Positions 3,798 to 14,107 of a stretch of DNA of 54,565 nt are shown here, in pieces. The stretch is from Prolixibacteraceae bacterium (GTDB lineage Bacteria; Bacteroidota; Bacteroidia; Bacteroidales; Prolixibacteraceae), in contig CANJNY010000019.1 of assembly GCA_947475715.1 (NCBI GenBank), positions 1-54,565 of the forward strand, in the 5' to 3' direction. Below the pieces are notes generated by a model, which was given only the letters and a program-made list of their open reading frames with translations, was not told where the DNA came from and ran no database searches. Numbering within the stretch: position 1 is the stretch's first letter; every line of letters begins with the position of its first letter. Made by a program: the position numbers and the translations under genes.

Positions 3798-4868
3798 TTG
3801 GTGAAAAGCATTAGAGAAAAACTTAAAAGTTCAAAGGTATATTTATACGGTGCAGGAAATATTGGAATTTCACTTTATCAAAGTATAAAAGGTCAAATCA
3901 ATATCTATGCTTTTTTGGATTCAAAAGCAAAAACTATTGCCATTGAGGGAATGGATGTCCTAAATCCGTTTGAGGAATCAATTAACACACACAATACCTT
4001 TGTTATTGTTTCAATTTTCAACCGGGCGTTTAATTTTGACTCCATTAAAATTCAATTAAATCAAGTGGGCTTTGATGAGGTAATCTCATATATAGAATTT
4101 TATCCATTTCTTAAAAAAAAGAATACCGACTGGTTTTGGCTCAGTAATAATCTGGAATATTTAAATAAAAAGTCAGAAATTGAATTAGTCAGCAAACTTT
4201 TTGAGGATAATAAAAGTCGTAAGATTTTTGCGTCAACAATTATGGCGCGTAGAAATTTTTCTTATTCTATGTTACCTTCTCCTGATCCTATACACGATCA
4301 ATATTTTTCAAAGGATATCCCTTTAAATGAATTTGATAATTTTGTGGATTGTGGAGCATATAATGGCGACACATTAGATATTCTGATTGACCAACAGATC
4401 GGATTTAAAAAAATCTATGCCTTTGAACCTGATTTAAATAATTTTACAGAGTTAACCGGGAAAATTAAAAAATATGATCTAAGTGCGATTTTATACCCTT
4501 GCGGAGTTTATTCTTCGAATATACTATTAAATTTCGGAGGAGGAGCCAATGAAGGAAGCACCATTCATGAAGGTGGAAGCACTCATATCCAATGCGTCGC
4601 GCTGGACGATATACTAATCAATGAACTATCTAAATCCACTTATTTAAAAATGGATATTGAAGGCAGTGAATTGGAAGCATTAAAGGGGGGAGCCAATTTA
4701 ATAAAAAAGTTAAACCCTGATTTAGCGATTTGCCTATATCACAAACCGGATGATATTCTGACCATACCCCTGTTCATTCAAAGTTTGGGATCCTATACCT
4801 TTTATTTAAGGCAGTATGGTTACTATGGAATGGAACTGGTATTGTATGCAATAAAAAAATCGATGTAA
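3798..4868 (+). CDS. FkbM-family methyltransferase with N-terminal Rossmann-like domain
   Basis: The 356-residue protein has two parts. Residues 12-105 form a PglD-N-like nucleotide-binding segment with YGAGNIG at 17-23. Residues 180-350 are an FkbM-type SAM-dependent methyltransferase with CGAYNGDT at 185-192, FEPD at 209-212 and the family hallmark KMDIEGSELEAL at 284-295. FkbM enzymes O-methylate sugar or polyketide hydroxyls. The start is TTG at 3798 or the GTG right after it; no strong ribosome site is visible for either. It is preceded by 233 bp without genes, so it may begin a new transcript that runs into the SDR/aldolase module. The acceptor is unknown. Confidence 0.82.
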   Translation: MVKSIREKLKSSKVYLYGAGNIGISLYQSIKGQINIYAFLDSKAKTIAIEGMDVLNPFEESINTHNTFVIVSIFNRAFNFDSIKIQLNQVGFDEVISYIEFYPFLKKKNTDWFWLSNNLEYLNKKSEIELVSKLFEDNKSRKIFASTIMARRNFSYSMLPSPDPIHDQYFSKDIPLNEFDNFVDCGAYNGDTLDILIDQQIGFKKIYAFEPDLNNFTELTGKIKKYDLSAILYPCGVYSSNILLNFGGGANEGSTIHEGGSTHIQCVALDDILINELSKSTYLKMDIEGSELEALKGGANLIKKLNPDLAICLYHKPDDILTIPLFIQSLGSYTFYLRQYGYYGMELVLYAIKKSM

Positions 4869-4881
4869 TCAAATTCCCTGG

Positions 4882-5808
4882 ATGATATCTTTCATTATAA
4901 CCGGTGCTACTTCAATGATCGGAATTGAACTATGCACACAATTAACATCCTTGGGCCATCAGGTTTACGCGATTTGCCGTAAAGGTAATGATCGTATAAA
5001 ACGATTGCCACTAGATAATAATCTGAAGGTAATATATGCAGACCTCCAAAATTTAAGCCATATTCTTGGTTCTCCAATCCAGGCAGATGTATTTATTCAT
5101 TTAGCATGGACAAATACCGATCATGAAGGACGAAATAATGAAGCGCTTCAGCGTTTAAATGTTGATTATGCCCTGGAAGCCATTAGAATAGCCTCATTGA
5201 GTGGATGTACTCTTTTTGTTGAAGCAGGATCGCAGGCTGAATATGGAGATGCACCAGATCTGATAACCGAAGAAACTCCTTGCTATCCTTATGTAGAATA
5301 TGGGAAGGCGAAATTGCGAGTATTACACGAAGGCTCTGAACTATGTAATTCTTTAGTCTTAAAATATTTACACCTGCGAATATTCAGCACATTTGGAGAA
5401 AATGACAGACCATGGACATTAATCTTATCTGCGATAGATAAAATGCTGAAGAATGAGGAAATTGAATTAAGTAGTTGTACACAGAACTGGAATTTTCTTT
5501 ATGTATCAGATTGTGCCAAACAAATTTACAGGTTATGCAACCACTTGATAAATAAATCAGATTTTAGTTTTGGTGTTTATAATATTGCTTCAAAAGAAAC
5601 CCGCCCTTTGAAAAATTATATCGAGGAGATGAAATTATTGCTTCAAAGTTCCAGTATTTTGATGTATGGGTATATTCACTCAGCGAAACAGGTTTCATTA
5701 AATCCATCAGTAGCTAAAACCGAGCGTGCTATCGGATTTACGAATGAGATCTCTTTTTCGGAAGCTATAAAAATAATTATAAACAGAAATTATAATATAA
5801 AAATTTGA
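4882..5808 (+). CDS. NAD(P)-dependent epimerase/dehydratase (extended SDR)
   Basis: This 308-residue extended SDR has TGATSMIG at 7-14 and a YxxxK pair at Y140/K144 (YGKAK). A serine-containing EAGSQAEYG stretch at 114-122 takes the place of the usual SSS segment. It begins 13 bp after the FkbM gene and ends inside the start of the aldolase (TTGA overlap, 5805-5808), so it is very likely translated together with that enzyme. In this setting it probably reduces, epimerises or dehydrates a nucleotide sugar, or another intermediate handled by the aldolase and TPP enzymes. The substrate is unknown. Confidence 0.8.
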   Translation: MISFIITGATSMIGIELCTQLTSLGHQVYAICRKGNDRIKRLPLDNNLKVIYADLQNLSHILGSPIQADVFIHLAWTNTDHEGRNNEALQRLNVDYALEAIRIASLSGCTLFVEAGSQAEYGDAPDLITEETPCYPYVEYGKAKLRVLHEGSELCNSLVLKYLHLRIFSTFGENDRPWTLILSAIDKMLKNEEIELSSCTQNWNFLYVSDCAKQIYRLCNHLINKSDFSFGVYNIASKETRPLKNYIEEMKLLLQSSSILMYGYIHSAKQVSLNPSVAKTERAIGFTNEISFSEAIKIIINRNYNIKI

Positions 5809-7409
5809 ATATTAAATTATTGGATTGCACTCTCCGGGATGGAGGGTACAATAATGATTGGGAATTCGGCCATGAAAATTTAATAAACTTATTTGAGCGA
5901 AGTATCTCCTCCGGTATAGATTTTATTGAAGTTGGATTTCTCGATGATCGTCGGCCCTTTGATATAAACAGAAGTATCATGCCAAATACTTCATCTGTTG
6001 ACCAAATATGGGGTAACCTGGATAAAAAAGATACTAAAGTTGTGGCGATGATCGATTATGGAACATGCGATATATCTAATATTGAGCAATGTGAAGATAA
6101 TTTCCTGGATGGGATACGAGTCATTTTCAAAATGGAATTGATGCTTGACGCTTTAGGATATTGTCAAAAACTAAAAGATTTGGGATATTTAGTATTTGCA
6201 CAAGGGGTATCCTTTACAACCTATACCGATGATAAGCTCGATGAAGTTGTTAAACTGCTAAACCAGTTAAAACCTTATGCTTTTTCAATTGTCGACACCT
6301 ACGGCATAATGGATATTAATTCATTAATTCATTATTATAAGTTTCTGGACACCAACTTGGATCCTGATATTGGCATTGGATTTCATGCGCATAATAACTT
6401 TCAGTTGGCTTTTGCCAATTGCATGGAATTGGCAAGAATGCACGGTGAAAAACCCAGAGAGCTGTTACTGGATGGCTCAATATTTGGGATGGGTAAAGGT
6501 GCAGGTAATGCTCCATTAGAACTATTGGTTACATTTATGAATGAAAATTTTATTACCCATTACGATATTAATCAACTTTTGGAGGCGATTGATGTAACCG
6601 TTTTGGATCTTCATAAACAATTAAATTGGGGTTACTCTTTTAAAGCGTTTATTGCAGCATCCAATGATTGTCATCCGAACTATGTTTCTTATTTACTCAA
6701 CAAGAAAACATTGTCAGTAAAATCCGCGAATGAAATACTACAGAAAATAGAAAAAGGTCCAAAAAAATTAAATTACGACAAGGATTTAATAGAGTCTCTT
6801 TATGTTGATTATCAGAAGAACAGTTGTCATGACAGTCTCGATTATCTAAAAATCAAGAACGTCGTTAATCAAAAAAAGGTTCTTTTGATTGGCCCGGGTA
6901 AAAGTGTGATCAGTGATCAGGAAAAAATTATTGCTTTTATTAATACGGAGAAGCCAATAGTATTCTCCGTTAATTTTATTCCTGCCCTATTTGATGTCGA
7001 TTTCTTGTTTCTAACAAACTCGAAAAGATATGCACAGCAATCGATAGCCATTTCACAAGCGGCTAAACATATAAAAATAATTGCCACATCGAATGTAACT
7101 TCAGCGGAGGATAAGTTTGATATAAATTTAGATTATGAAACCCTCATTGATCGGGATGCAGTTTTTATGGACAACTCATTTATTATGGCTCTTAAAGTTA
7201 TGTTGAGAAGTAATGTAGAGGAAATTTCTCTTGCAGGTTTTGATGGTTATTCATTAAGTAAAGAGTCTGATTATTTTTCGTCAAAAATGGAATATGAGTT
7301 TTCAAAACGAATGGGACAAGAGATTAACGCAAATGTAGATAAAACACTTTCCGAAATAAAGACAAGACTTAAAATCCAATTTATCACTCCTACGTTGTAC
7401 AAATCTTAA
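5805..7409 (+). CDS. DmpG-type aldolase fused to a C-terminal Rossmann-like domain
   Basis: The first half (about residues 1-300) is a DRE-TIM/HMGL-like barrel: DCTLRDGGY at 7-15 holds the catalytic Arg-Asp, HAHNN at 194-198 is the metal-binding HxH, and GKGAGNAPLEL at 230-240 is the glycine loop seen in 4-hydroxy-2-oxovalerate aldolases. Such enzymes cleave or form 4-hydroxy-2-oxo acids from pyruvate and an aldehyde. The second half (about 350-534) starts with VLLIGPGKS (359-367) and looks like a separate nucleotide- or sugar-phosphate-binding domain, which stand-alone DmpG enzymes lack. The TTG start overlaps the stop of the SDR by four bases. With the HAD and TPP genes downstream it forms a compact module. 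The substrate is unknown; a role in making a carbon-chain-extended or branched sugar or acyl group is inference. Confidence 0.8.
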   Translation: MNIKLLDCTLRDGGYNNDWEFGHENLINLFERSISSGIDFIEVGFLDDRRPFDINRSIMPNTSSVDQIWGNLDKKDTKVVAMIDYGTCDISNIEQCEDNFLDGIRVIFKMELMLDALGYCQKLKDLGYLVFAQGVSFTTYTDDKLDEVVKLLNQLKPYAFSIVDTYGIMDINSLIHYYKFLDTNLDPDIGIGFHAHNNFQLAFANCMELARMHGEKPRELLLDGSIFGMGKGAGNAPLELLVTFMNENFITHYDINQLLEAIDVTVLDLHKQLNWGYSFKAFIAASNDCHPNYVSYLLNKKTLSVKSANEILQKIEKGPKKLNYDKDLIESLYVDYQKNSCHDSLDYLKIKNVVNQKKVLLIGPGKSVISDQEKIIAFINTEKPIVFSVNFIPALFDVDFLFLTNSKRYAQQSIAISQAAKHIKIIATSNVTSAEDKFDINLDYETLIDRDAVFMDNSFIMALKVMLRSNVEEISLAGFDGYSLSKESDYFSSKMEYEFSKRMGQEINANVDKTLSEIKTRLKIQFITPTLYKS

Positions 7410-7410
7410 A

Positions 7411-8067
7411 ATGTCAAAATATAAACTGATTGTATTTGACCTGGATGGTACATTATTGGACACTAGCGAAGGCATCTTAAAATCTGTCAAAGAGACATTA
7501 TTTCATTTTAATTTGGGAGAGATAAACGATAATATGATTCAGCGTTTTATTGGGCCCCCTATTCAAAATTCATTAGAAGAAGTTTATGGCTTAACAGGTA
7601 TAACATTACAAAAAGCAACAGATTATTTCAGGACTATTTACAGCGGGGAAAATCTTTTACATGCCAGGGTATATGATGGAATCTATGACCTATTTGAATA
7701 CTTAAAAAATAATTCATATCTCATTTCTGTTGCTACGTATAAACGGGAAGACTATGCGATAAATTTATTAAAAGCCTTTCATTTTGATCTTTATTCGGAT
7801 ATTCTATTTGGGGCCGATAATTATAATAAACTTAAAAAAAATGATATCATTCTCAAATGCATTAAAAAATCTAAAATAAAAGATTATTCACAAGTACTGA
7901 TGATTGGCGATACATTACATGATTACACCGGCTCCAAACTAATTGGAATTGATTTTATGGCAGTTACTTATGGATTTGGGTTCAAAAGCAAACCGGATTA
8001 TGAAAAGTTGGATTGCATTGCAGTTGTTGATACTCCCCTTGAAATTATCAAAGCATTAAATGATTAA
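7411..8067 (+). CDS. HAD-superfamily phosphatase (phosphoglycolate phosphatase-like)
   Basis: The 218-residue protein has HAD motif I DLDGT at 10-14 (nucleophile Asp10, acid Asp12), motif II SVATYK at 106-111 and motif IV GDTLHD at 166-171. A helical cap between motifs I and II resembles that of phosphoglycolate phosphatases. It starts one base after the aldolase stop and ends three bases before the TPP enzyme, so it belongs to the same unit. It probably removes phosphate from an intermediate of the pathway, such as a sugar phosphate or phosphorylated acid. The substrate cannot be read from the sequence. Confidence 0.85.
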   Translation: MSKYKLIVFDLDGTLLDTSEGILKSVKETLFHFNLGEINDNMIQRFIGPPIQNSLEEVYGLTGITLQKATDYFRTIYSGENLLHARVYDGIYDLFEYLKNNSYLISVATYKREDYAINLLKAFHFDLYSDILFGADNYNKLKKNDIILKCIKKSKIKDYSQVLMIGDTLHDYTGSKLIGIDFMAVTYGFGFKSKPDYEKLDCIAVVDTPLEIIKALND

Positions 8068-8070
8068 ATT

Positions 8071-9873
8071 ATGAAAATTAAATTAGCTCAATATGTAGCT
8101 GATTTCCTGGCCAAGCAAGGGGTTAGTGATATATTTACCATCACAGGTGGTGGTGCAATGCATTTAAATGATGCATTGGGACATCATGAAAAATTGAATT
8201 GTATCTATAACCACCATGAACAGGCATGTGCCATTGCCGCCGAGGGGTATACCAGACTTACCAATAAGTTAGCAATCGTTTGCATTACCAGCGGTCCCGG
8301 AGGGACTAATGCAATCACAGGAGTATTAGGAGGATGGTTAGATTCAATTCCAATGTTTATCATCTCAGGACAAGTAAAACGCGAAACAACGGTTTACGCG
8401 ACCGAGTTGCCGCTTCGTCAATTAGGAGATCAGGAATTTAATATTATCCCCAGCGTTAGTAGTTTTACAAAGTATGCCCAAATAGTAATTAATCCCAATG
8501 ATATTGCTTATCATCTGGAAAAAGCATATCACCTCTGCCGAACCGGAAGAGGTGGACCAGTTTGGCTTGATATCCCATTGGATGTGCAAGCGGCTATTAT
8601 CGAAACAGATGAACTACGACATTTCAATGAAGAGGTAGAAACAAGCTACCTGGAAAAGGCTGTATATGACTCATCGAAGAGTCCTTCGATTATTGAAAAA
8701 ATAAAATCAGCACAAAGGCCTGTAATTTTGGCTGGCACAGGAATCAGATTAGGTGACTCACGCGATGCATTCCTACAATTGATTGAACAGTTTAAGATAC
8801 CTGTGGTAACAGCCTGGAATGCGAATGATTTATTGTGGGATGAGAATCCCTATTATTGTGGAAGACCCGGAACGGTAGGAACAAGAGGCGGTAATTTTGT
8901 AGTTCAAAATTCAGACTTACTTCTGGTTCTTGGTTGCCGATGCAATATTCGTCAGATAAGTTATAATTATCGTCAATGGGCCCCAAAAGCCTATAAAATC
9001 ATTGTTGATATTGATAAATCGGAACTGCTAAAACCAACGATAAGTGCTGATTTACCCATTTGGGCCAATGTGAAAGATTTCATTAATGACCTTCTTAAAT
9101 ATGATTTGAACCTCTGCCACTCTGATTCTCATTCTAAATGGTTAGAATGGTGTCGTACAGTTAATTCTAAATATCCTGCCACTTTACCTGAATATCACAA
9201 TTCCAATGAACTTTTGAATCCCTATGTTTTCGTAAAAGAATTTACTCAGCTATTGAAAGTAGATGATAAGATTATATGTGGAAATGGAAGCGCTTGTGTG
9301 ATTAGTTTCCAGGCAGGTGTGATAAAAAAAGAAACTCGCCTGTTTACAAATTCCGGGTGTGCTGCCATGGGGTACGGTTTCCCGGCATCTATTGGATGTG
9401 CTGTGGCAGAAAAGGGTAAACGCGTAATCTGTTTGGATGGCGATGGTAGTTTTCAGATGAATATTCAGGAGTTACAGACCGTAGTTTACAACAAATTGAA
9501 TCTGAAAATTATTTATCTCAATAATAACGGTTATCATTCTATCCGTCAAACGCAAACTAATGTATTTAAAGATCATCCCTTAGTCGGCGTAGCCGATGGA
9601 AACGGTTTAAGTTTTCCTGATATGGAAAAAATTGCATGGGCCTATGGAATTTCATACATGAAAATTACTTCAGAAGCACAAATTCCTGCTATGATTGATT
9701 TCATCGATAACGATGAACCCGTTTTCTGTGAAGTCATTGTAGACCCTGGCCAAAACTTTGCACCAAAACTGTCATCCAGAATACTTCCGGATGGGACTAT
9801 AATATCACCGGAGATCGATGATATGTTTCCCTTTTTAAGCAGAGAAGAATATGAAACTAATAAACTGCCATAA
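8071..9873 (+). CDS. Thiamine pyrophosphate-dependent enzyme, acetolactate synthase-like (copy 1)
   Basis: This 600-residue protein has the full three-domain layout of the acetolactate synthase/pyruvate oxidase family. The N-terminal Pyr domain carries the cofactor-activating Glu50 in NHHEQ. The middle domain has AGTGIR and a Rossmann-like core. The C-terminal PP domain has GDGSFQ at 457-462 and NN at 484-485, which bind the Mg-diphosphate. Family members decarboxylate a 2-keto acid and transfer the two-carbon unit to an aldehyde or ketone. In glycan loci the flavoenzyme relative YerE builds the branched sugar yersiniose from a CDP-3,6-dideoxy-4-keto sugar, which is suggestive here because CDP-dideoxyhexose genes lie at the left end. 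No small regulatory subunit is present, arguing against housekeeping isoleucine/valine synthesis. Confidence 0.85.
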   Translation: MKIKLAQYVADFLAKQGVSDIFTITGGGAMHLNDALGHHEKLNCIYNHHEQACAIAAEGYTRLTNKLAIVCITSGPGGTNAITGVLGGWLDSIPMFIISGQVKRETTVYATELPLRQLGDQEFNIIPSVSSFTKYAQIVINPNDIAYHLEKAYHLCRTGRGGPVWLDIPLDVQAAIIETDELRHFNEEVETSYLEKAVYDSSKSPSIIEKIKSAQRPVILAGTGIRLGDSRDAFLQLIEQFKIPVVTAWNANDLLWDENPYYCGRPGTVGTRGGNFVVQNSDLLLVLGCRCNIRQISYNYRQWAPKAYKIIVDIDKSELLKPTISADLPIWANVKDFINDLLKYDLNLCHSDSHSKWLEWCRTVNSKYPATLPEYHNSNELLNPYVFVKEFTQLLKVDDKIICGNGSACVISFQAGVIKKETRLFTNSGCAAMGYGFPASIGCAVAEKGKRVICLDGDGSFQMNIQELQTVVYNKLNLKIIYLNNNGYHSIRQTQTNVFKDHPLVGVADGNGLSFPDMEKIAWAYGISYMKITSEAQIPAMIDFIDNDEPVFCEVIVDPGQNFAPKLSSRILPDGTIISPEIDDMFPFLSREEYETNKLP

Positions 9874-9936
9874 ACCCCAATTTCGCTAATATAACTATAT
9901 TAACAATCCTAATTCGGAAACACTTTAAAGTTTTCA

Positions 9937-11298
9937 ATGATAACCCTGCTCAAAAAATTAGCCTTCAAACTCGGATTTAACAAAGCAATTCTTTTTACTA
10001 CCTCAGGTAGTTTAATCAATGCTTTTGGGAGTATATTTACTATAATTTTTATTGTCAGATTCCTGAATGGGGTTGAGCAAGGATTTTATTATACATTTGG
10101 GAGTTTGGTCGCAATACAAGTTTTTTTTGAATTGGGATTAAATGGAATTATCACCCAATATGTCGCGCACGAGACATCAAATCTAAAATTACTCAATGAT
10201 CATAGCTTGGAGGGAGAATCTAAATACAAATCGAGATTGTCATCCCTCCTGCATTTTTGTGTCAAGTGGTACCTAAGCTTTGCAACTGCCCTATTTATAA
10301 CATTAATCATTTTAGGGTTCTACTTCTTTAATAAATATAGTTCAAATACTAACCAGGTTAACTGGATGATTCCATGGATTTTGCTTTCGTTAGGAACAGT
10401 AATGAATTTAATCCTATCTCCAATTATTGCATTTTTACAAGGCTTAGGAGAAGTTAAGGAAATTGCTAAAATTCAAATGTATCAACAAACAGTAAGATTT
10501 CCATTTTTATGGGGAGGATTAATATTTGGAGCCAAATTATACGTCTTAAGCATTAGCTGCTATATCCCCCTATTTATTGCCGTTATTTTAATAGTATCAA
10601 AGTATCGGATATTGCTTTCTAACATATGGTCAACAAACATTATTGAAAAAGTTCATTACCGAAAAGAAATTTTCCCCTATCAATGGAAAATTGCAGTAAG
10701 CTGGATAAGCGGTTATTTTATCTTTCAACTCTTTAATCCGGTTTTATTTGCGACAGAGGGACCGATTGTCGCGGGTCAGATGGGAATGACACTTGCAGCA
10801 CTAAATGGAATATTTTCATTATCCTTTGCCTGGATTACTACTAAAATTCCCCAATTTTCTGGTTTAATAGCTCAGAAACAATACTCTCAGCTGGATAACC
10901 TTTTTAAAACGAACCTAAAACAGTCAGTATTCATAAATTTCAGCGCTTTGACATTCATGATGATTGCCATATTTACGATCCGAAGGTTCAATATTGAATT
11001 AGTCGGAAAACCACTGGGAAACCGTTTTCTTGATTATTTTCCGATGTTATGTATGATGATTCCAGTATTTCTGAATCAATTTACAGCCTCCTGGGCAAGC
11101 TACCTACGATGTCATAAAAGAGAACCCTTTCTGGTTAATTCCCTTGTCGGGGGTGTGCTATGCTCATTCTCAACAATCATATTGGGAAAATATTTCGGAG
11201 TTATCGGTATAACCAATGGATACTGCCTCCTCACCCTATTAATGTTCCCTTGGGGATACTATATATTTAGCACAAAAAAAGTCGAATGGCATGTTTAA
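9937..11298 (+). CDS. Polysaccharide flippase-like membrane protein (Wzx/MATE-like)
   Basis: This 453-residue, strongly hydrophobic protein has about 12 predicted membrane helices, consistent with the PST/MVF flippase fold. The segment GVEQGFYYTFGSLVAIQVFFELGL near residues 43-66 is typical of a Bacteroidota subgroup of O-antigen exporters. It would flip a lipid-linked oligosaccharide across the inner membrane. It sits between two TPP-enzyme genes, and its stop falls inside the longest open frame of the next GT2. The stub at 2351 looks like the start of a similar gene. A second, different flippase is at 14816, so the region carries more than one export route. Confidence 0.82.
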   Translation: MITLLKKLAFKLGFNKAILFTTSGSLINAFGSIFTIIFIVRFLNGVEQGFYYTFGSLVAIQVFFELGLNGIITQYVAHETSNLKLLNDHSLEGESKYKSRLSSLLHFCVKWYLSFATALFITLIILGFYFFNKYSSNTNQVNWMIPWILLSLGTVMNLILSPIIAFLQGLGEVKEIAKIQMYQQTVRFPFLWGGLIFGAKLYVLSISCYIPLFIAVILIVSKYRILLSNIWSTNIIEKVHYRKEIFPYQWKIAVSWISGYFIFQLFNPVLFATEGPIVAGQMGMTLAALNGIFSLSFAWITTKIPQFSGLIAQKQYSQLDNLFKTNLKQSVFINFSALTFMMIAIFTIRRFNIELVGKPLGNRFLDYFPMLCMMIPVFLNQFTASWASYLRCHKREPFLVNSLVGGVLCSFSTIILGKYFGVIGITNGYCLLTLLMFPWGYYIFSTKKVEWHV

Positions 11299-11363
11299 AC
11301 ACAGGTGCTCTTCAAATCACAAAAGTCTTTTCAAAATCTGATTATCCGAACACTAAAGAAATA

Positions 11364-12323
11364 ATGAAAACACCCATTCTCTCTATTTGTATTCCGACAT
11401 ACAACAGAGCTATATATTTAGAAGAAATATTAATTTCAATTATAAGTCAAAGGAGATTTCAGGAAACCAATGATGTAGAGATTGTTATATCAGATAACTG
11501 TTCCGAAGACAACACCACTGAAGTGTGCGAAAAATATATTGAAAAATACTCCGGGAAGATTCGGTATTACAGAAATGATGAAAACATTCACGATGCTAAT
11601 TTTGAAAAAGTACTGTCATACGGGAATGGCGTATTTCTAAAACTTAATAACGATACTCTGAAGCATTATGAAAACACGCTGGATTTAATTATAAGAGTGT
11701 TAATTCAGAATAATATCGATAAAAACATTATTTTCTTCACCAATGGTTACCTAAATTTCTCAACAGAAATTCTTTGTGAAAATTTGAATTCCTTTGTGAA
11801 AAATGCATCCTACTGGACAACGTGGATAGGCAGTTTTGGAATTTGGAAAGAAGATTTTGATAAACTTGAGAATTTTAGCCGAAATTCTAAAAACCAATTG
11901 GTACAAACGGATGTCTTGTTGCGACAAATTAGTTCTGGCAAATCCGCATTAGTCGTAAATATTATACTGTTCGAAGGAATAAAACCAAAATCAAAGGGAG
12001 GATATAATTTCTTCAAGGTCTTTGTTATCCATTATCTGGACCTTTTAGAGGAATATAAGAAAAAGAAACTGCTTTCACGAACAACCTTGTTCAATGAGAA
12101 AACGAAGCTGATGAGATACTTTATAATTCCTTGGGTAAGCGTTTTAACAAGTAATCAAACCGGCTATTCATTCGACATGAAAGGGATGTTTTCGGTAATA
12201 TTCAAGAAATTTAGGTTTCATCCAATTTTATACATAGGCGTATTAATATTCCTGATAAAAAAGATTCAATCATCATTAAAAACAATACCTTTAGTCCAAC
12301 TAAATAGCTCTAAATTAAAATAA
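11364..12323 (+). CDS. Glycosyltransferase family 2 (copy 2 of a paralogous pair)
   Basis: The reading frame is open from ATG 11286, which overlaps the flippase gene, but the ATG at 11364 is the better start: it gives MKTPILSICIPTYNRA, matching the paralogue at 2590, whereas the 26 residues upstream have no counterpart there. From 11364 the protein is 319 residues. SICIPTYNRA sits at 7-16, ISDNCS follows, then LNNDT at the metal-site position. The C-terminal landmarks (SYWTTWIGSFGIW, KGGYN and a hydrophobic tail) match the other copy in order and spacing. The two may transfer related sugars, possibly to different acceptors. Confidence 0.8.
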   Translation: MKTPILSICIPTYNRAIYLEEILISIISQRRFQETNDVEIVISDNCSEDNTTEVCEKYIEKYSGKIRYYRNDENIHDANFEKVLSYGNGVFLKLNNDTLKHYENTLDLIIRVLIQNNIDKNIIFFTNGYLNFSTEILCENLNSFVKNASYWTTWIGSFGIWKEDFDKLENFSRNSKNQLVQTDVLLRQISSGKSALVVNIILFEGIKPKSKGGYNFFKVFVIHYLDLLEEYKKKKLLSRTTLFNEKTKLMRYFIIPWVSVLTSNQTGYSFDMKGMFSVIFKKFRFHPILYIGVLIFLIKKIQSSLKTIPLVQLNSSKLK

Positions 12324-12403: not shown

Positions 12404-14107
12404 TTGAAAGTCGCCACTTACATAGCCAAATTCCTAAAGATAAAAAAAATCAATACTGTTTTTACTTTACAGGGAGGTACAATCTCAAGAATTCTTGATT
12501 CCATTCATCTCGAAGGTGGGATAAAAATAGTGAGTATGCATCATGAACAGTCAGCCGCAATGGCTGCAGATGCTTATAGCCGAATAACCAATAAACCAGG
12601 TATTGCATTAGCCACCTCCGGACCGGGAGCTACAAATCTTTTAACGGGAATCGGGAATTGCTATTTTGATTCTGTTCCGGCTATATTCATTACCGGGCAG
12701 GTTAACATTGCCGAGCAAAAGGGTGACAGTCATACACGTCAATTAGGTTTTCAGGAAACTGATATTGTAAATATGGCAAGGCCAATAACAAAAGAAGCTA
12801 TCGCTATAAAAAATACCGATGCGGTAATCTCCATATTTGAAAAAGCTTTCAATCTGGCCATATCGGGTCGTCAGGGTCCTGTTTTAGTTGATATTCCCAT
12901 GAATATTCAAAATGAAGAAATTAATGACTTAGCCCCCGATATTAAGGCTATAAACCATAGTAAGAATCGACAAAACATAACAGAATTTTTTTTCAGGTAT
13001 TTACAGGATTTGGAAAATTGTAAGCGTCCATTGATCCTGGTCGGCAGGGGAATTCGAGCTGCCGGATCAGTTGAAGAATTTATTTTGCTCCTTCAAAACT
13101 TCAAGATTCCTGTCGTTACTTCCCTATTGGGCTTGGATGTTTTACCTTTTGTTCATCCTCAGCGAATCGGTTTTATAGGCACTTACGGTAATCGATGGGC
13201 CAATTATGCACTTGATAAGTGTGATCTTTTGCTTGTTTTAGGCAGCCGGATGGATGTTCGACAAACGGGATCAGATATAGCATCTTTTCAGACTGGAAAG
13301 AAAATATATCATGTCGATGTTGAACCAGTTGAACTAAACAACCGGATTAAAGGGTGTGTAACCTTGGAAAGTAATTTAAATGAATTCTTCACTCATATAA
13401 AAGGGATTAATTCTTTATATATTGCACCCTCTGAATGGGTGGCCCGGATAGAAGAGATAAAACTATCCCGCCTTGACATAAATGAATTAGATAACATTAT
13501 TGGCATTAACCCCAATGTTTTTATCCATCAGCTTTCTCAGGTATCTAAACTGGCTAAAGCCTATATCTGTGATGTTGGAAATCATCAAATGTGGTGCGCT
13601 CAATCATTGGAATTAGAAAAAAATCAACAATTTCTAACATCCGCAGGAATGGGTGCCATGGGATATGCATTGCCTGCCGCAATAGGAGCCTCATTTGCAT
13701 TAGGAAAAAGGCCGGTCGTATGTATTGCCGGAGATGGAGGATTTCAAATTAATATTCAGGAATTGCAAACTATCCGTAGAAATAGACTTCCTATAAAAAT
13801 TGTCATCCTCAACAACTACAGCCTTGGTATGATCAGACAGTTTCAGGACAGCTATTTTGAAAGCCGCTATACGTCCTCAGTTTTTGATTATGATGCTCCG
13901 GAATTTGCAAAACTTTCTAAGGCTTATGGCATAGAGTCTTTTTCAATCTCCAGAATAGAAGAAATTGAAATCGGTCTTTCTGAACTCTGGAAGGATCCGG
14001 CTCAGCCATTTCTTCTGGAGGTATCGTTGGATATTTTCACAAATGCTTTTCCAAAGATTATGTTTGGAAAAAAGTTAACAGAAATGGAACCCCAATTAAA
14101 CTCATAA
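12404..14107 (+). CDS. Thiamine pyrophosphate-dependent enzyme, acetolactate synthase-like (copy 2)
   Basis: The 567-residue protein has the same fold as the gene at 8071 but is clearly diverged from it. The activating Glu48 lies in MHHEQ, the middle domain has VGRGIR, and the PP domain has GDGGFQ at 443-448 with NN at 470-471. The frame begins with TTG at 12404; no better in-frame ATG precedes the conserved start of the fold. It lies 80 bp after the GT2, and what follows is a decayed gene. Two different enzymes of this type within 6 kb of a glycan locus, without an acetolactate synthase small subunit, point to sugar or acyl-group synthesis rather than amino-acid metabolism. Confidence 0.83.
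   Translation: MKVATYIAKFLKIKKINTVFTLQGGTISRILDSIHLEGGIKIVSMHHEQSAAMAADAYSRITNKPGIALATSGPGATNLLTGIGNCYFDSVPAIFITGQVNIAEQKGDSHTRQLGFQETDIVNMARPITKEAIAIKNTDAVISIFEKAFNLAISGRQGPVLVDIPMNIQNEEINDLAPDIKAINHSKNRQNITEFFFRYLQDLENCKRPLILVGRGIRAAGSVEEFILLLQNFKIPVVTSLLGLDVLPFVHPQRIGFIGTYGNRWANYALDKCDLLLVLGSRMDVRQTGSDIASFQTGKKIYHVDVEPVELNNRIKGCVTLESNLNEFFTHIKGINSLYIAPSEWVARIEEIKLSRLDINELDNIIGINPNVFIHQLSQVSKLAKAYICDVGNHQMWCAQSLELEKNQQFLTSAGMGAMGYALPAAIGASFALGKRPVVCIAGDGGFQINIQELQTIRRNRLPIKIVILNNYSLGMIRQFQDSYFESRYTSSVFDYDAPEFAKLSKAYGIESFSISRIEEIEIGLSELWKDPAQPFLLEVSLDIFTNAFPKIMFGKKLTEMEPQLNS

Follow-up and report, generated by a model that had tools for sequence, protein, structure and literature searches.

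The window analysed here is a 54,565-nucleotide stretch of DNA, the entire contig C19 (CANJNY010000019.1) of the Prolixibacteraceae bacterium assembly GCA_947475715.1. It carries four consecutive genes, on the forward strand like every window gene named below, that encode a short-chain dehydrogenase/reductase (SDR; 4882-5808, Pfam Epimerase), a two-domain pyruvate aldolase of the HMGL/DmpG type (5805-7409), a HAD_2 phosphatase (7411-8067; PF13419, 109 bits) and a thiamine diphosphate (ThDP)-dependent ligase with all three TPP domains, here named TPP1 (8071-9873). In the list of open reading frames (ORFs), the SDR gene overlaps the aldolase gene by 4 bases and gaps of 1 and 3 bases separate the aldolase, HAD and TPP1 genes, the tight spacing already described in a first-pass annotation made from the sequence alone. 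The aldolase-HAD-ThDP gene order was found again in other genomes and in one locus (L049) aldolase and HAD are fused as a single ORF of 777 amino acids, which argues that the module is not a product of chance.

Among solved structures, TPP1 was closest to JanthE, a ketone-accepting YerE-like ThDP ligase (8rph, 362 bits), followed by the acetolactate synthase (ALS) 6lpi (226 bits) and by 5ahk (225 bits), which we take to be the YerE of Pseudomonas protegens (PpYerE). The product of a second ThDP ligase gene, TPP2 (12404-14107), was closest to 5ahk (428 bits), followed by 6lpi (278 bits) and JanthE (243 bits). Two trees, of 25 and 28 rows, grouped JanthE with the TPP1 relatives in one clade and 5ahk with TPP2 in another (support 100/99). 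At the donor-site position aligned with JanthE V121, YerE and ALS rows carry Phe; of the 17 TPP1-family rows that cover it in the 25-row alignment, 16 have Asp and one, L091, has Tyr (the L032 row is partial and does not include this position). All 17 rows also keep the equivalent of JanthE Y297, in place of which YerE/ALS rows have Ser, Ala or Lys; TPP1 itself keeps this residue, the catalytic Glu and the ThDP GDG motif. TPP1 is thus predicted to be a YerE-like ThDP ligase of the JanthE type, transferring an acyl group to a ketone, and TPP2 is probably the pyruvate-type YerE of the locus, which would use pyruvate to give the same acceptor a two-carbon branch of the yersiniose type. Three TPP2 relatives (L096-L098) were located with rfbFGH and an SDR gene, and none of the three had a partner aldolase within 6 kb (the L098 stretch extends only 3 kb on one side).

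The aldolase gave an HMGL-like Pfam match of 77 bits; its best NCBIfam match was the DmpG-type model NF006049 (83 bits, below the cut-off of 229), and the DmpG model TIGR03217 gave 69.7 bits against a cut-off of 286. Residues R11, D12, H194 and H196, which we take to be the Arg-Asp pair and the HxH metal ligands, are invariant in all 12 aligned two-domain rows, window included, and on these residues the protein is a predicted class II pyruvate aldolase of the HMGL superfamily. Residues ~1-341 form a TIM barrel, whose nearest solved structure was 3dxi, the N-terminal domain of BVU_2661. The C-terminal domain (residues 342-534, ~190 amino acids, nucleotides 6828-7406) is kept in the two-domain relatives aligned. 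Its model (predicted local distance difference test score, pLDDT, of 76.3) was nearest to the M. jannaschii HPPK 8sd5 (E 1.1e-5, template modelling score 0.57) and also weakly SteA-like, and the HPPK resemblance is a lead only. With a pLDDT of 66.8, the AlphaFold model of the full-length protein was of middling quality, and no active-site argument was therefore built on it. The viral contigs searched held no aldolase relative. Single-domain aldolases of ~315 amino acids and 29-33% identity recur in the organism's own family outside the module context; these were set aside, no ORF matching TPP1 at E 1e-4 in their seven neighbourhoods (L036-L040, L043, L044).

Full-length aldolase relatives were present in the window, in the same-genus genome G078 (76% identity), in G462 (44%) and in seven named contigs (L045-L051; 54-61%) from Alistipes, Oscillospiraceae, Prevotellaceae (two), Victivallales, Bacteroides and an uncultured bacterium. 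Among 395 phylum-sampled genomes, the aldolase occurred in two, its own included. A TPP1-type gene lies near the aldolase in eight of the ten loci (window, L032, L045, L046, L047, L049, L050, L051), the stretches of the other two, L035 and L048, ending too soon to show one. HAD_2 follows the aldolase in the window, L046, L047, L049 (fused), L051 and, after ~1.2 kb, L050; L032 has a NagD-type HAD, L045 and L035 a FabG-like SDR gene with a dehydroquinate synthase (DHQS)-like gene, and L048 no phosphate-removing partner before the contig end. In the Bacteroides metagenome-assembled genome locus L051 (9983-11598), the aldolase frame is interrupted, giving two overlapping frames.

Searched with TPP1 itself at a score of at least 510 bits, the phylum sample gave relatives in 11 of the 395 genomes. 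In the organism's own family, only its own genome out of 140 had a TPP1 relative at E 1e-100, and the plasmids searched had none at E 1e-80; the G078 assembly, whose module contig stops within the DHQS-like gene, lacks one as well. In each of the 11 TPP1 neighbourhoods, a single enzyme from the families that form 3-deoxy-2-oxo acids lies 4 bases to 3.4 kb from TPP1: HMGL/DmpG in the window, HpcH/HpaI in seven loci (L079-L085) and NeuB in three (L086, L090, L091). A phosphate-removing enzyme, HAD or DHQS-like, was present in 9 of the 11, namely HAD_2 in the window, NagD-type HAD in L081 and L082, and a DHQS-like gene with a FabG-like SDR in L079, L080, L083, L084, L085 and L090. L081 and L084 have sister TPP1 enzymes (86% identity) and different phosphate enzymes, NagD and DHQS-like respectively, so this step has been exchanged between close relatives. 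The DHQS-like gene (7411-8475 in L045, from Alistipes sp. CHKCI003) is paired with a FabG-like SDR gene in all eight loci that have it (L035, L045, L079, L080, L083, L084, L085, L090), is additional to a separate aroB in all seven genomes checked (G472, the source of L090, lay outside this check) and encodes a protein of no more than moderate similarity to known DHQS (138 bits).

The partnership was also approached from the RfbH side. RfbH as the query gave 29 loci in 28 of the 395 genomes, and 19 further RfbH neighbourhoods together with 10 earlier ones were scored with profiles built in this analysis. A 2-oxo-acid-forming partner accompanied nine of the ten TPP1-type loci, the tenth, L146, being a contig of 3,081 bases, whereas none of the 19 RfbH loci without TPP1 (three of them YerE-type, L096-L098) showed such a partner within 6 kb. 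Weak and more distant NeuB matches were seen in two of the 19, L097 (68 bits at 7.3 kb) and L138 (62 bits at 6.3 kb); the Fisher P for a partner with TPP1-type versus other loci is 1e-6, or 5e-5 if these two are counted. The phylum sample thus holds 14 TPP1-type loci (the 11 above plus L129, L133 and L146), 13 of them with a partner.

One of these, L133 (genome G455), has the gene order rfbF, rfbG, SDR, JanthE orthologue, acetylating acetaldehyde dehydrogenase, DmpG, SDR, rfbH. The orthologue is 60% identical to JanthE and keeps its CDG motif, and dmpF (TIGR03215, 373 bits, cut-off 282) and dmpG (TIGR03217, 391 bits, cut-off 286) are genuine. Run in the synthetic direction, this DmpF-DmpG pair would give 4-hydroxy-2-oxovalerate, free of phosphate, and neither the HAD nor the DHQS-like profile matched in the 17.5 kb of L133 read. 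With the L133 DmpF as the query, no window ORF matched at E 1e-3.

On the acceptor side, the window opens with the 3' end of a gene (1-366; the 5' part lies beyond the contig) whose product is 63.6% identical over 121 amino acids to that of the gene after rfbH in G078, where contig C256 (L069) carries rfbF, rfbG, rfbH, a short ORF and E3 (5112-5795). From the RfbH pathway, we take this product to be E3, the reductase partner of RfbH. The first-pass annotation named neither this gene end nor TPP2. In the own genome, rfbF (L068, 8943-9716) and rfbG (9745-10956; 512 bits, cut-off 278) lie at the end of contig C3, in a stretch 11,067 bases long. The product of 1331-2347 matched two cytidine diphosphate (CDP)-tyvelose 2-epimerases, 9rl0 (500 bits) and 1orr (452 bits), with the next match at 115 bits, and is named a CDP-tyvelose (CDP-paratose) 2-epimerase. 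Because of rfbF and rfbG at the C3 end, E3 at the window start and this epimerase, the locus very probably makes CDP-4-keto-3,6-dideoxyglucose, drawn on in several ways, in agreement with the acceptor that had been suggested from the window alone. In the 23 module loci (10 of the aldolase type, 10 further from the TPP1 sampling, and L129, L133 and L146), rfbF, rfbG and rfbH were all on the stretch read in 11 (L045, L047, L049, L081, L082, L084, L085, L090, L091, L129, L133), one or two rfb genes were found in four (L051, L079, L083, L146), and the window (without rfbH) and G078 have theirs on other contigs; six stretches, on contigs of only 3.5-9.9 kb, had none (L032, L046, L048, L050, L080, L086). 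The longer loci are rfb glycan clusters. The earlier view of a sugar-modifying module is supported.

Two further observations concern these CDP-sugar genes. A beta-lactamase-fold gene lies between rfbG and rfbH in the HpcH-type loci L084 (6326-7090), L085 (8429-9172), L081 (11482-12231) and L082 (5680-6663), with a 107-amino-acid piece of it in L079; the fold was tested against PF12706 in L084 and assigned in L085, L081 and L082 by similarity or resemblance. A Desulfobaculum plasmid (L033, 6971-13005) carries rfbF and rfbG pieces, rfbH, a split transketolase and a short aldolase (337 amino acids), and is perhaps a transketolase-type counterpart of the module.

The gene families, their conservation, the one-to-one partnership and the donor-site change are read directly from the sequences, and we judge it probable, at roughly three chances in four, that these genes together supply and transfer the side chain of a nucleotide sugar branched at C4, with the aldolase making the 2-oxo-acid donor of TPP1. 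RfbF, RfbG, RfbH and E3 would supply CDP-4-keto-3,6-dideoxyglucose. The two-domain aldolase would combine pyruvate and a phosphorylated aldehyde into a phosphorylated 4-hydroxy-2-oxo (3-deoxy-2-ulosonic) acid, which the HAD phosphatase would strip of its phosphate either before or after the ligase step. TPP1 would decarboxylate the 2-oxo acid on ThDP and move the acyl chain to the C4 ketone, leaving a tertiary alcohol; an SDR, 4882-5808 being the best candidate, would reduce the branch ketone, and a GT2 glycosyltransferase would transfer the sugar. The substrates, the chain length, the order of the phosphatase and ligase steps and the stereochemistry we infer. Because the aldolase would make the donor of the ThDP enzyme, the branch is expected to be longer than the two carbons of yersiniose (five with glyceraldehyde 3-phosphate as the aldehyde, six with erythrose 4-phosphate) and to carry a 1' hydroxyl, a 2' CH2 and hydroxyls at 3' and beyond, giving a caryophyllose- or erwiniose-like sugar.

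Published work offers precedents for such chemistry. According to the available text of PMC12188165, JanthE (8rph), whose physiological substrates are unknown, takes donors from pyruvate up to 4-methyl-2-oxovalerate and, with benzaldehyde, also 4-hydroxy-2-oxovalerate. ErwE, as described in PMC12247030, prefers longer hydroxylated 2-oxo acids, with CDP-4-keto-3,6-dideoxyglucose. Caryophyllose is given in the accessible text of PMC5706390 as 3,6-dideoxy-4-C-[D-altro-1,3,4,5-tetrahydroxyhexyl]-D-xylo-hexopyranose, and its 2' CH2 is what a 3-deoxy-2-oxo acid donor predicts.

TPP1 might instead use pyruvate, as YerE does, and make a two-carbon branch, while the aldolase and HAD separately make a free 3-deoxy-ulosonic acid as another glycan residue. 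Pyruvate is indeed also accepted by JanthE (available text of PMC12188165), and distant two-domain aldolases of 21-22% identity (L034, 9986-12988; L041, 7316-9607; L042, 8828-11068) adjoin or lie near cytidylyltransferase-like genes, so this aldolase type may serve the synthesis of cytidine monophosphate (CMP)-ulosonates. The neighbour in L034 (Leisingera) is annotated as a 3-deoxy-manno-octulosonate cytidylyltransferase and has a 51% relative in L041, the L042 gene gave a weak CTP_transf_3 match, and a HAD is also present in L034; these sets are perhaps a pyruvate-based route to CMP-ulosonic acids. However, no window ORF matched the cytidylyltransferases of L034 or L042 used as queries, the partner enzymes accompany ThDP ligases of the TPP1 type rather than the YerE type, the donor site has changed from Phe to Asp and the window already has a separate YerE-type enzyme, and we regard this explanation as unlikely.

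Less probable still is that the aldolase adds pyruvate straight onto a keto or aldehyde sugar nucleotide and that TPP1 acts on another site or sugar. In the longer loci aldolase and TPP1 do sit beside rfbFGH, but HpcH- or NeuB-type enzymes replace the aldolase while the TPP1 relative stays, and phosphate-removing enzymes accompany most partners; a small phosphorylated aldehyde as acceptor fits both, and the product expected from dmpF-dmpG in L133 is a free 2-oxo acid of small size. The first-pass annotation had treated the aldolase and the ThDP enzyme as separate extenders; the evidence favours enzymes acting in series. A spare ALS, in a set serving amino-acid or aromatic metabolism, is very improbable: TPP1 does match general ALS models best in NCBIfam, but TIGR00118 gave it only 335 bits (474 for TPP2) against a cut-off of 538, JanthE is clearly the nearest structure, the longer loci are rfb glycan clusters and no aromatic-degradation context, the outcome that the first-pass annotation had named as refuting, was recognised in the loci read, although no systematic search for degradation genes was made and 6 of the 23 stretches are too short to show CDP-sugar genes. 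A phosphonate route was dropped, as no such gene was noticed by eye.

Several observations weigh against an aldolase-fed TPP1. The annotated 'intact catalytic motifs' hold for the Arg-Asp and HxH residues and fail at the RDGMH of the DmpG-type structure 8ih7, which reads RDGGY in 12 of 12 rows, His giving way to Tyr; this His, two residues after RDG, is presumably catalytic in DmpG. For the aldolase's C-terminal domain, Pfam gave no convincing match. The donor-site Asp is absent from L129 and L133 (Val) and L146 (Thr) as well as L091, and the K567 equivalent, Lys in TPP1 rows, is also Lys in some YerE-type rows and does not discriminate. L086 (a 5.3-kb contig), L091 and L129 gave no strong phosphatase or DHQS match, L129 showing a weak HAD 4.3 kb away. 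The own assembly yielded no RfbH, its best relative reaching 165 bits against a cut-off of 423, and the end of C3 and the start of the window share no exact overlap, so the order C3-rfbH-C19 is drawn from synteny; rfbH is also missing from the 19-kb stretch L079, and all three rfb genes were seen in fewer than half of the module loci. Contig ends cut 10 of the 19 control loci within 6 kb; restricted to the nine with 6 kb on both sides, P is 1e-4, or 1e-3 counting L097, and since many loci share family f19 the counts are not independent and all these figures are descriptive. Finally, TPP1 and the L133 enzyme share only 36% identity, and its donor may therefore be a different one.

More tentatively, and with somewhat less than even odds, the loci may represent one general modular route, in which a DmpG-, HpcH- or NeuB-like enzyme would provide a 3-deoxy-2-ulosonate, in many cases bearing a phosphate, for a JanthE-type enzyme to join to a CDP-4-keto-dideoxy sugar. 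The fate of the phosphate would then set the branch: an open chain with HAD, as in the window, or, with the DHQS-like enzyme of the sister loci, a carbocycle closed as the phosphate leaves, giving a cyclitol C-C-linked to the sugar. If the chain in DHQS loci were R-CO-CH2-(CHOH)3-CH2-OP, it would mimic 3-deoxy-D-arabino-heptulosonate 7-phosphate with the sugar replacing the carboxylate, and a DHQS-type reaction could close it to a six-membered carbocycle. We know of no described pathway to a cyclitol C-C-linked to a surface sugar, although no structure-based search for one was made.

The SDR 4882-5808 is the likely reductase of the branch ketone, in a YerF-like role; related SDRs adjoin YerE-type enzymes in L096 (27.7%) and L097, the L097 protein having a different module SDR as its best match (29%). 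Another SDR (408-1259; Pfam Epimerase) is perhaps a reductase of the CDP-paratose/abequose synthase type. An FkbM-family methyltransferase gene with a TTG start (3798-4868; PF05050) has relatives that also adjoin the module in L046 (48%) and L090 (37%). The flippase (9937-11298), named Wzx-like by resemblance, has 36% relatives in L090, a TPP1-type locus, and L098, a YerE-type locus. Two paralogous GT2 glycosyltransferases (PF00535; 2590-3564 and 11286-12323, 38% identical) have relatives at TPP1-type (L045) and YerE-type (L096) loci and are candidate transferases of branched sugars; those of the 11286-12323 protein share 32% (L045) and 36% (L096) identity with it.

More than 200 YerE-like enzymes are predicted and the vast majority lack a known sugar structure, according to the available text of a 2025 review (PMC12247030). 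Such enzymes being already known, the added element would be the proposed aldolase-fed donor supply. The neighbouring aldolase and phosphate-removing genes would provide a rule by which genome sequence alone predicts the donor and, through it, how long the branch is and what shape it takes, and the supply would explain a possible source of long hydroxylated donors. The loci also point to sugars not yet known in the surface glycans of bacteria, some of which may be carbocyclic, and offer aldolase-ligase pairs for making tertiary alcohols. A literature survey by title and abstract found no description of aldolase supply to YerE-like enzymes or of the DHQS-like variant, although earlier proposals in the ErwE, JanthE 2024 and Krug 2024 work are possible.

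The YerE precedent named by the first-pass annotation is of the right kind, the closest systems being JanthE/ErwE (erwiniose) and caryophyllose. YerE of yersiniose A synthesis (YpYerE, PpYerE) shares the CDP-4-keto-3,6-dideoxyglucose acceptor (available text of PMC12247030) and has its probable counterpart in TPP2, but its pyruvate donor and two-carbon branch differ from those predicted for TPP1. The window aldolase resembles DmpG (4-hydroxy-2-oxovalerate aldolase) and BVU_2661 (3dxi) in its HMGL-type barrel, Arg-Asp and HxH ligands, and shares the RDGGY motif with 3dxi; unlike DmpG, it scores below the DmpG cut-off, has the His replaced and an extra C-terminal domain, and is accompanied by no DmpF-like ORF in the window. 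The caryophyllose system (MMAR_2332, Mycobacterium marinum) is similar in the six-carbon 1,3,4,5-tetrahydroxyhexyl branch on a 3,6-dideoxyhexose (accessible text of PMC5706390), but it is actinobacterial and likened by sugar structure, not by sequence or donor route. ErwE of Pectobacterium atrosepticum (erwiniose) uses a hydroxylated 2-oxo acid donor with CDP-4-keto-3,6-dideoxyglucose as acceptor (PMC12247030, in the part available); its donor is probably smaller than that proposed for TPP1, and the likeness is by description, not sequence. JanthE (Janthinobacterium sp. HH01), the nearest solved structure to TPP1, has the Y297 equivalent in common with it but carries a CDG motif and V121 where TPP1 has the usual GDG and Asp, and while the JanthE orthologue in L133 has dmpF-dmpG partners, TPP1 has the two-domain aldolase and HAD.

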